From contig NW_026114235.1 of NCBI RefSeq assembly GCF_018139145.2, positions 992,001 through 1,056,000 of the forward strand: a stretch of DNA of 64,000 nt, written 5' to 3'. The stretch comes from Gymnogyps californianus (taxonomy: Eukaryota; Chordata; Aves; Accipitriformes; Cathartidae). This document shows, piece by piece, positions 25,412 through 36,342 of this stretch. The translations under genes were made by a program, and so were the position numbers. Position 1 is the stretch's first letter. Each line of letters opens with the position of its first letter. The notes below the pieces were generated by a model, which saw nothing but the letters and a program-made list of their open reading frames with translations, was not told where the DNA came from and did no database searches.

Positions 25412-25416
25412 CCATT
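25412..25416 (-). other. Target-site duplication half, AATGG (minus strand)
   Basis: The five bases beyond the 3' end of the LTR fragment of provirus B read AATGG on the minus strand. The same five bases precede provirus D at 36338-36342. They do not match the 5' flank of B (TACAC). Confidence 0.75.
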
Positions 25417-25494
25417 TGTCATGGTTTAACCCCGGTCAGCAGCTAAGCACCACGCAGCCGCTCCCTCACATCCTCCCACCTGGCTCCCAGCGGA
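25417..25494 (-). repeat. Terminal 78 bp of a D-subtype LTR (3' end of B)
   Basis: Read on the minus strand it contains GTGAGGGAGCGGCTG and CTTAGCTGCTGAC and ends CCATGACA. These match the D LTR (GTGAGGGAGCGGCTG, CTTAGCTGCTGAC) and not the B 5' LTR (ATGAGCGAGCGGCTG, CTTAGTTGCTGGC). It is fused directly to RT, with integrase and most of the LTR deleted. Confidence 0.85.
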
Positions 25495-26531
25495 TGTTTT
25501 ATGGCAAAACCGGCTTTCAGAAGGATTTGGATTATTTTCTCCCCTTTCTCAAAAACTTCTTCTGCTGTGTTGCCCCATACGATGATGTCATCAATGTACT
25601 GCAGGTGTTCTGGAGCTTCACCATTTTCCAGTGCATTCTGGATTAGTCCATGGCAAATGGTGGGGCTGTGTTTCCACCCCTGGGGCAGTCGATTCCAGGT
25701 GTACTGGACGCCCCTCCAAGTGAAAGCAAACTGTGGCCGGCACTCTGCTGCCAAAGGGATTGAGAAAAATGCATTAGCGATATCACTTGTGGCATACCAC
25801 TTGGCTGCCTTTGACTCCAGTTCATATTGAAGTTCTATCATGTCTGGCACAGCAGCACTCAGCGGTGGTCTAACTTTATTCAGGCCACGATAGTCCACTG
25901 TTAGTCTTCATTCTCCGTTAGACTTTCGCACTGGCCAAATGGGGCTGTTAAAGGGTGAGCGAGTCCTGCTGATCAGTCCTTGGCTCTCCAGTCGACAAAT
26001 CAGCTTATGGATGGGAATCAGGGAGTCTCGGTTGGTGTGATATTGCTGCTGGTGCACCCTTGTGGTAGCGATCGGCACCTGTTGCTCTTCGACCCTCAGC
26101 AACCCCACAACCGAAGGGTCCTCAGAGAGACCAGGTAAGGTGGACAACTGTTCAATTCCCTCTGTCTCCAAGGCAGCTATACCAAAGGCCCACCAATACC
26201 CCTTTGGGTCCTTGAAATACCCTCTCCTGAGATAATCTATGCCAAGGATGCATGGGGCCTCTGGGCCAGTCACAATGGGGTGTTTTTGCCACTCATTCCC
26301 AGTTAGGCTTATTTCAGCCTCCAACACAGTTAGCTGTTGGGATCCCCCTGTCACTCCAGAAATACAGATGGGTTCTGCCCCTTTATAACTTGATGGCATT
26401 AGAGTACACTGTGCACCGGTGTCTACTAGGGCTTTATACTCCTGTGGGTGTGATGTGCCAGGCCATCGAATCCACACAGTCCAGTAAACCCGGTTGTCCC
26501 TTTCCTCCGCCTGGCTGGAGGCAGGGCCCCT
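25495..26531 (-). pseudogene. pol: Protease and partial RT of provirus B
   Basis: Starting after the gag UAG in the same frame, it encodes the retropepsin with LVDTGA, then RT to YIDD and about 30 residues beyond (AGFAIK), where it meets the LTR fragment. A TGG to TGA stop interrupts it near 25912. RT thumb, RNase H and integrase are missing. The downstream fusion adds about 17 LTR-encoded residues to the frame. It differs from C by roughly 3-4% in nucleotides by eye, unlike the near-identical gag next door. Confidence 0.85.
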
Positions 26532-33214: not shown

Positions 33215-35090
33215 TTCCTTGGAAGCAAGGACAGGCGACACGGGAGGACTACAGAGATGCTGCTCGCCACTGTAGGGAGAAAATTCATGCGGCCAAAGCT
33301 CGATTAGAGTTCAAGCTGGCCAGCACTGTGAAGGACAACAAAAAGGGCTTTTTTTAAATATGTTAACAGCAAAAGGCGGATCAGAGACAACATTGGTCCG
33401 CTGCTTCACGAGGTTGGTCACCTCACAAATAGGGATGTAGACAAAGCATAGATGTTTAATGCCTTCTTCGCCTCTGTCTTCAACACCGATGATGGGCCCT
33501 GGGACCCATGGAGCCCTGTGTTGGAAGACCGTGACTGGAGCAATGATAAACTCCCAGCAGACTCTGAACTTGTTTGAGACTTGCTGCTCCAGCTGAATGC
33601 ACATAAATCTATGGGGCCCGATGGGATTAATCTCAAGGTACTGAAAGAGCTCGCCGATGTTATTGCGGGACCTCTCTCCATTATTTTTCAATGGTCTTGG
33701 GAGTCTGGAGAGGTCCCAGTCGACTGGAAGTTGGCAAATGTTGTCCCAATTTTCAAGAAGGGTAAGAAGGAAGCCCCTGGTAATTACAGGCCTGTCAGTC
33801 TCACTTCAGTGCCTGGTAAAATTATGGAGAAGGTTATTCTGGGAGTTACTGAAAAACACTTGAGAGACAATGCAGTCATTGGTCATGGCCAGCACAGGTT
33901 CATGAGGGGAAAGTCCTGCTTAATTTCCTTTTGTGACAAGGTCACCCATCTAGTTGACCAAGGGAAGCCAGTAGATGTGGGTGTTTTGGATTTTAGCAAA
34001 GCTTTTGATATTGTCTCTCACAGTATCCTTCTGGATAAAATGTCCAGCACACAGCTAGGGTTATAGTAAATGGGGTTACATCAGGCTGGCAGCCAGTCAC
34101 CAGTGGGGTGCCCCAGGGCTCAATTTTAGGGCCAGTGCTCTTTAGTGTTTTTATAAATGATCTGGACGCAGGAATCGAATGTACATTAAGTTTGCCAATG
34201 ATACTAAACTAGGAGGAGCTGTGGACTCCCTCGAGGGTAGAGAGGCCTCATAGAAAGATCTGGATAGACTAGAGAGCTGGGCAATCACCAACCGTATGAA
34301 ATTTAACAAGAGCAAGTGCCAGATTCTGCACCTGGGATGGGGTAATCCTGCTTATACATACAAATTGGGGGACGAGAGACTGGAGAGCAGCCCTGCCGAA
34401 AGAGATCTGGGGGTTTGGGTCGATGGCAAGTTGAACATGATTCAACAGTGTGCCCTGGCAGCCAAAAGGGCCAACCGTGTCCTGGGGTGCATCAAATACA
34501 GCATAGCTAGCCGGTCAAAGGAGGTGATTGCCCCCCTCTACACTGCACTGGTGTGGCCCCACCTCGAGTACTGTGTGCAGTTCTGGGTGCCTCAATATAA
34601 GAAGGCCATCAAACTATTAGACTGTGTCCAGAGGAGGGCGACCAAGATGGTGAAAGGCCTCGAGGGCAAGGCTTATGAGGAGCGGCTGAGGTCACTTGGT
34701 TTGTTCAGCTTGGAGAAGAGAAGGCTGAGGGGTGACCTCATTGCAGTCTACAACTTCCTCAAGGGGGGCAGCAGAGGGGGAGGTGCTGATCTCCTCTCTC
34801 TGGTGACCAGCGATAGGACACGAGGAAATGGAATGAAGCTGCGTCAGGGGAAGTTCAGATTGGACATTAGGAAAAGGTTCTTCACTGAGAGGGTGGTCAG
34901 TCACTGGAACAGGCTCCCCAGGGAAGTGGTCACAGCACCAAGCCTGTCAGAGTTCAAGGAGTGTCTGGACGATGCTCTTAGTCATATGATTTAGTGTTAG
35001 GTAGTCCTGCGAGGAGCAGGGAGTTGGACTCCATGATCCTTATGGATCCCTTCCAACTTGAGATATTCTATGATTCTATGATTTATGATA
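33215..35090 (+). mobile_element. CR1 LINE, 5'-truncated, degraded ORF2
   Basis: It begins within ORF2 upstream of the RT domain (AARHCREK-like segment near 33260) and runs to a CR1 3' end with TTCTATGATTCTATGATTTATG at about 35070-35090. Stops and frameshifts occur throughout. Confidence 0.92.
33240..34994 (+). pseudogene. CR1 ORF2 remnant
   Basis: The RT fingers and palm (HKSMGPDGINLKVL, NYRPVSLTSVPGKIME, LDFSKAFDIV) are open at 33581-34066. An internal deletion of several dozen bases follows LLDKMSST, SGVPQGSILGP resumes in another frame, and the catalytic box reads FAND instead of FADD (near 34190). The C-terminal segment (34296-34994) is open and ends with RLDIRKRFFTERVVSHWNRLP. It is non-functional. 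Confidence 0.88.
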
Positions 35091-36337
35091 ATGAAGAAAT
35101 TTTACCTGTCATGCCATCAAACTACTTGCATATTCTGACATTATTTCTGAGATTACTGCTTTGCAAATTGGCTTGGAGCATGATTTGCTATATAGATAAA
35201 AGGATGGATAGTCACTGTGTGATCAATAGTCTTTTCTGTCATGTTAAACTCCACCTGAAGTAACCCAAATATCTTCTGAGTATTCACTATATAATTCAGG
35301 AACTATTATTGTCACAATCACTTTACATTTTATGACCTAACTGACTTATATTCTTGATGGGAAGGTAAGTTTCCAGCAGCTTGTTTTTAGAATTTCCTCT
35401 GCTTACTCAGCAAATACAGGTTATTCACAGATGACCCAGTACTTAAATTTTTAAGTATTTTAGGATCTCACCACCTCTCCTCCTTGTTTTCCTTCCTGTT
35501 TCCCTCTCAACCAACAAGGAAAGAAAAAAAAAACCTTACTTGTTCTCTCAGCAGTTAATTTATGCTGCTTGTATGCTTTTTTCAGTTCACATACCAATTG
35601 TTTGAATGAGATTTGGAAGAGCTCTCTCATTAGGCCTTCTGAAGATAATTGCGTTGTTTCAGAAGCTCTGCTCATTCTGAGATCCAAATTGGCTTGTGAA
35701 ATTTTCTGATAGCTCGCTAGGTAAACAGTATGGGGTTTTTTATGTTAATTGTTCATGAGAGTGCTATTTTGTTCATGACTTCTAAAGCTTGGTTCCAAGG
35801 CTTATTAAGGGTGCAAAGGTCTCCTGAACTGTTCACTGTGGCTCCAATTACAGTTCTAGAGCTATAAAGCTCTAGTTACTGTATTTTTGCTTTCTCAACA
35901 ATCACTGAAGTTTTATTAATATAGTGTAAATCCTTTTACAGCTCTTTAAAGCTACCTCTTCATTATTTTCTGTGTGTTTATTTCTCCTAGATGTAAGGTT
36001 AGTTAAAAATGGAAATGTGAGTTGGAAAGATAATTCAGTTTTTATTTCTAAAACCTAGCACTTTTAAATTACTATATTCTTGTATAGCAACATTTTAAAG
36101 GCAGAGGAAAAGAAACCATAGTATGCTTGTGGTACTGATGTTGAAACTATTTTAGCAAAAAAAAGAGGGGGAAGGGAGAAAGGGAGGGAAACAGGACTTT
36201 AGAGGAGGTGTTTTACTTGAGACTGACAACTGTTTTTAAAACACTGCTGACCCTTTAAGCCCATATCCTAGCATAATATATGTTTATGTGATACACTGCA
36301 AATAGAAAAGGAGAAGATTCTCTAAATATTAGACTAA
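35091..36337. other. Host DNA without recognisable genes
   Basis: AT-rich DNA with a purine-rich run near 36160-36200. No supported exon was found. Confidence 0.55.
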
Positions 36338-36342
36338 AATGG
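36338..36342 (+). other. Target-site duplication half, AATGG
   Basis: AATGG directly precedes the TG of the provirus D LTR and pairs with the AATGG beyond the 3' end of provirus B. Confidence 0.75.

Follow-up and report, generated by a model that had tools for sequence, protein, structure and literature searches.

An orphan target-site duplication marks a split retroviral insertion site and a probable deletion-inversion-duplication event in Gymnogyps californianus

Complex structural variants of the delINVdup type have been described in people and are attributed to MMBIR/FoSTeS in the relevant excerpt of PMC6286558. Duplicated non-repetitive host DNA at inversions is treated, in a section of PMC12368964, as a signature of NHEJ, with staggered breaks followed by end joining as its source. 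Mismatched target-site duplications (TSDs) reveal provirus-mediated rearrangements, according to an excerpt of PMC11379458, which cites Hughes and Coffin (2001). In birds, the W chromosome is rich in endogenous retroviruses (ERVs; described in part of PMC8310711), and gene conversion from arm to arm is reported for sex-chromosome palindromes in a portion of PMC3723533.

The window analyzed here is a 64-kb stretch (C285:992001-1056000) of a 1.24-Gb genome. It contains proviruses B, C, and D of one retroviral family, which we take to be bird class II (ERVK-like). Pfam matches to RVT_1, RNase_H, and rve were found in C and to RVT_1 in B, as in endogenous retroviruses; neither Rfam nor a tRNA scan yielded a match in the window. 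Elsewhere in the window, a first provirus (79-6800) has unmatched 5-bp flanks (TTAAG and GAAGA, by eye), and 11993-13006 and 23026-24005 form a direct repeat of ~1 kb that is 90.5% identical.

Provirus D occupies 36343-39907 on the plus strand and consists of a D-type 5' LTR and gag, broken off at the homologue of C position 43960. The motif AATGG at 36338-36342 lies immediately 5' of its LTR start (TGTCC at 36343), as an earlier note on this DNA had described. A second copy, which that note placed after the 3' end of B as read on B's own strand, appears as CCATT on the forward strand (25412-25416). It stands immediately 5' of TGTCATGG, which in reverse complement is an LTR end from the same family as B, C, and D. 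This end belongs to a 78-bp LTR 3' fragment on the minus strand (25417-25494), assigned here to D, that terminates in ...CCATGACA followed by AATGG. The site of D shows the TG...CA LTR ends and fixed-length TSD of an endogenous retrovirus, here 5 bp; the solo LTR at 13272-13853 (minus strand), with GCTTC on both sides, served as a control for TSD length. Within the 5' LTR of D (36808-37516), a 699-bp TG...CA element is nested at 36813-37511 with GTCAT on both sides (by eye), and this probably represents a solo LTR from a different family.

The CCATT and AATGG copies, 11 kb apart, flank what was once a single insertion site, as its empty state on scaffold C30 of the same assembly confirms. There, the left host flank (24008-25416, plus strand, with CCATT at its end; collinear with C30:66995260-66996667; K2P 0.079) and the reversed 36337 side meet at exactly one CCATT in a gap-free alignment.

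The stretch C30:66990001-67003696 was read for block order against the window. Its main blocks run 18413-22901 (+), 24008-25416 (+), 36342-35081 (-), 33219-31855 (-), 31854-30058 (-, interrupted), and 48217-49695 (+), with gaps between some of them; flank blocks differ from the contig by K2P values of 0.07-0.12, and B, C, and D are all absent from the homologous stretch. The earlier note had predicted an ancestral order of left flank, D-type provirus (-), reversed 30.5-36.3-kb segment, flank, and provirus C (+), to be sought in a relative or another individual, and this uninverted order, minus the proviruses, was found on the diverged homologue in the same genome (left flank, 36.3-30.1 kb reversed, 48.2 kb onward). 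The host segment 30490-36342 is inverted relative to that state, its aligned blocks having the opposite orientation on C30, where the junction 30489/30490 is continuous. When reversed 29600-31400 was used as a query, C30 provided the one match outside the contig across 30489/30490 (87%, query 1-1343). Of 702 candidates, the best 40 were scored; the other listed matches outside the contig were weaker, and all fell within a repeat (query 1469-1801). The order of the contig is derived and that of C30 ancestral, because only the C30 order lets both TSD copies flank one provirus. Besides the proviruses, 40340-41159 and 48144-48216 are missing on C30, as is 33220-35080 (1.86 kb), presumably a CR1-like insertion; 34094-35089 resembles 7515-8496, and the latter overlaps an RVT_1 frame.

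Three of the five DM-domain matches listed for the genome fall on C30, within 102 kb. Such a grouping of DMRT genes is characteristic of the bird Z chromosome, so C30 is likely Z and contig C285, in turn, likely W, the homologue on C30 being the diverged counterpart expected of a W-linked gametolog.

The inversion is adjoined by an inverted duplication. In a comparison of the window with itself, 39908-44899 matches the reverse complement of 25495-30489, which includes 1,252 bp of the host flank of C (39908-41159, plus strand; 39908-40339 also present on C30). Provirus C extends over 41160-48143 on the plus strand and is absent on C30, and its 5' part up to ~44899 recurs in B. The similarity falls into two phases. 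Over C coordinates 39908-43691 (3,784 bp; 26703-30489 on the minus strand in the copy), B and C differ by three substitutions and five one-base indels, and the 5' LTR of B (28647-29237, minus strand) differs from that of C at 1 of 591 aligned sites. Over 43692-44899 (1,208 bp), the count rises to 44 substitutions (3.6%; Fisher p ~3e-24). Because the 1,252 bp of host flank are almost the same in B and C, the 5' flank TACAC, correctly reported for B in the earlier note (GTGTA at 29238-29242), is C's own flank (TACAC at 41155-41159), copied along with the provirus. The left flank copy retains the ancestral reversed 30490 side and the right copy the downstream 48217 side (right host flank, 48217-49695, plus strand, which on C30 directly follows the 39908-40339 flank). 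Retention of one ancestral neighbor by each copy characterizes inversions that are accompanied by an inverted duplication, as described for end joining (PMC12368964) and for delINVdup variants (PMC6286558).

Provirus C itself has mismatched 5-bp flanks (TACAC and ACAAA; 41155-48148), and its LTRs are 4% apart. Part of C's flank, 40471-41128, lies in a repeat, the listed matches of which are mostly 67-82% identical.

At the two derived junctions, the sequences overlap by only one or two bases. D gag joins host flank at 39907/39908 with an overlap of ~1 nt, whereas on C30 this flank runs into the reversed 30490 side; the LTR fragment joins pol at 25494/25495 with an overlap of 2 nt (CA), and in a separate search the other 39 matches scored do not cross this junction. 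D lacks everything from the homologue of C 43960 to the last 78 bp of its LTR.

The earlier note had also held that the LTR fragment carries D-subtype markers, and this part of the claim stands in weakened form. Among the six LTR tails in the window, that of D matches the fragment best (score 56, others 40-45), but mismatches separate the two at 8 of 76 aligned sites, and in the final 46 bp D does no better than the solo LTR at 13.5 kb: each shows three differences, those from D all being CpG/TpG changes. Nor is the fragment specific to D genome-wide: among the best 40 of 972 candidates scored, the 39 matches other than the fragment itself have identities of 86-95% over its whole length or a part of it (86-92% over near-full length), and D is not listed among them. 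It is the empty site, rather than the LTR sequence, that links the fragment to D.

The intervening part of B, gag end and pol (25495-26702, minus strand), is 3.6% from C, and its source is disputed between a third C-type provirus and, from ~26434 on, D itself. To type the family, 25 of 27 loci (L002-L028) were assigned a gag type, 11 D-type and 14 C-type, with L002 and L015 lacking a gag match; sites separating the types at >=80% in the 25 typed copies, that is, at least 80%, were taken as diagnostic. Seven such sites lie within 43834-44899 (43839, 43840, 43841, 43846, 43849, 43859, and 43885). In D, all seven are D-type; in B, the first six are C-type and 43885 alone is D-type. Of the 127 sites in 43834-43960, 14 distinguish B from D, five of these lying after 43885. 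These differences and the C-type bases speak against B 26434-26560 being D. The base of B at 43859 does not derive from the present C, since C, although a C-type, has the D-like base there and is D-like from that site on.

Further along, the evidence leans the other way. Among 13 D-type copies, 4 share the base of B at 43964 and 8 share that at 43970; among 34 C-type copies, the counts are 0 and 3, respectively. A pol tree groups B with two D-type copies, L034 and L056. This support is weak but real, because no pol site after 43885 separates the types at the 80% level and C is D-like from 43859 on. A gag-type likelihood computed from pol alleles gave -6.5 for B and +7.3 for C, against ranges of -9.1 to 7.2 for the 11 D-type and -24.0 to 12.5 for the 14 C-type copies, and does not discriminate between the types. 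Age was dropped as a means of assigning B pol to D, the median distances from other copies being 4.3% for B pol and 3.5% for C pol; D gag is 7-10% from 12 D-type copies, which differ by 7% among themselves. In an attempt to polarize conversion between B and C, the nearest family copies over 42900-43691 were found to be 5.1% from C. Since the B-D differences and C-type bases conflict with the D-leaning pol relatives, the assignment to D is confined to the final 78 bp. The proposal that D and the last ~1 kb of B were one provirus therefore holds, via the empty site, for those 78 bp and is in doubt for the rest, and the tree placement, grouping B with D-type copies, is at odds with the C-type bases at six of seven sites. 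More generally, family loci L003-L028 show the two gag types across C coordinates 43600-43890; differences are close to fixation as far as 43885, but beyond it, to 44899, no site reaches 80% in 25 copies, a pattern that we read as recombination at the gag-pol border.

Based on these comparisons, we favor a model, which we hold to be probable, in which one insertion site was split, host DNA was inverted, and 5 kb of C and its flank were recopied in reverse, likely in one deletion-inversion-duplication event on the W. Given the empty site, the order on C30, the reversed duplication, and two junctions without long homology, the remaining steps may be reconstructed as follows. D would have inserted in minus orientation after Z/W recombination had ceased here. 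A broken end in its 3' LTR would then have joined C pol at 44899, and copying would have run backwards through the 5' part of C, its flank, the 30.5-36.3-kb segment, and the 5' part of D to 39907. The copied strand would have rejoined the original at 39908, by template switching or repair of staggered breaks, at the cost of ~4 kb of D if the length of C is a guide. Gene conversion from another family copy is assumed to have made B and C differ from ~43.7 kb on. Several points sit poorly with this model: the phase change between B and C (43691-43834) falls within 130-270 bp of the D break (43960), a coincidence it does not explain; the two nearest tree relatives of B pol are D-type, as is the base at 43885; the extra gene conversion has to be assumed; and 8 differences in 76 sites between D's LTR end and the fragment are many for one provirus, although the three in the final 46 bp are all CpG/TpG changes. 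The near-identical arms suggest a recent event, but no age is given, because arm-to-arm gene conversion can make arms look young. As a more tentative extension, the locus could be a nascent W palindrome, in which a break in a provirus made inverted arms of 3.8-5 kb around a 9.4-kb spacer, with gene conversion from other copies of the retrovirus family already altering the arms.

The earlier note attributed the inversion to recombination between D and C. In its simple form, this mechanism was rejected, because the right-hand D/C hybrid is missing: of the two reciprocal hybrid elements expected from ectopic recombination, the left element could be one, but at the right end D joins host flank at 39907/39908, the full start of C follows, and 39908-44899 is present twice, inverted. 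A modified version seems unlikely to us but has specific evidence behind it. Here, B arose by homologous exchange between D (-) and C (+) close to the gag-pol border, so that 26434-25417 is the pol and LTR of D; repair recopied the 5' part of C and its flank, and the pol-LTR deletion at 25495 was a separate event. The break in D does coincide exactly with the homologue of B 26434, and the bases at 43885, 43964, and 43970 and the grouping with L034 and L056 all lean toward D. Apart from the absent hybrid, however, B differs from C at five sites within 43692-43944 and from D at the 14 of 127 sites noted above, with C-type bases at six of seven, so C or B must also have been altered. The lack of any type-separating site in 43886-44899 (80%, 25 copies) and the D-like state of C from 43859 on further blunt the argument.

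A doubtful variant, to which we give less weight still, accepts one insertion for both LTR ends and has one half later overwritten by gene conversion, so that D and the fragment no longer represent one lineage. The 8 of 76 differences and the omission of D from the 39 matches of 86-95% identity (best 40 of 972) would fit, but the fragment has bases in common with D that the tails of C, B, and the elements at 13.5 and 60 kb lack (by eye), and the empty site requires one insertion only. Misassembly of near-identical inverted provirus copies is very improbable: one-base indels, which are typical of consensus errors, make up five of the eight differences within the first 3.8 kb, yet the derived junctions lack homology of overlap length and the flank copies run into two different neighbors, each supported by C30. 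Two independent insertions that happened to share AATGG are scarcely credible. A 5-mer match by chance has p ~0.001 for two given ends, and several such ends could be paired in the window; this calculation is irrelevant, however, because C30 shows the empty site, with contiguous flanks and one CCATT, which refutes the reading.

As this locus shows, an orphan TSD by itself can betray an inversion that would otherwise go unnoticed, and no second species is needed to verify it when the assembly retains a diverged homologue, here likely the Z copy. The locus also provides a base-resolved case of rearrangement in an ERV-dense, likely W-linked region, here not by simple exchange between proviruses but by an event that duplicated host flank in reverse. 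A literature search found no account of this locus, and absence from print is not claimed.

The deletion-inversion-duplication pattern is already known, and the present locus probably adds an example. As far as the excerpt of PMC6286558 describes them, delINVdup variants likewise combine an inversion with an inverted duplication on one side; their loss on the other side and their short junction overlaps may have counterparts in the sequence missing from D and in the overlaps at this locus. In contrast, the scale here is kilobases, both derived junctions touch proviruses, and the overlaps are 1-2 nt, compared with at least 3 bp in eight of eight novel junctions there. The staggered-break inversions covered in the section of PMC12368964 share the presence of host flank within the duplicated block, which in our case is one-sided, 5 kb long, and mostly provirus. 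TSD mismatch as a detector of rearranged proviruses is common to this locus and the excerpt of PMC11379458, but that excerpt concerns a crossover hybrid of two proviruses, whereas the right-hand hybrid is missing here and it is a homologous scaffold of this assembly that reveals the ancestral empty site. Finally, the likely W contig resembles the bird W in its many proviruses, and the part of PMC8310711 at issue describes their density and expression, not a locus of the present kind.
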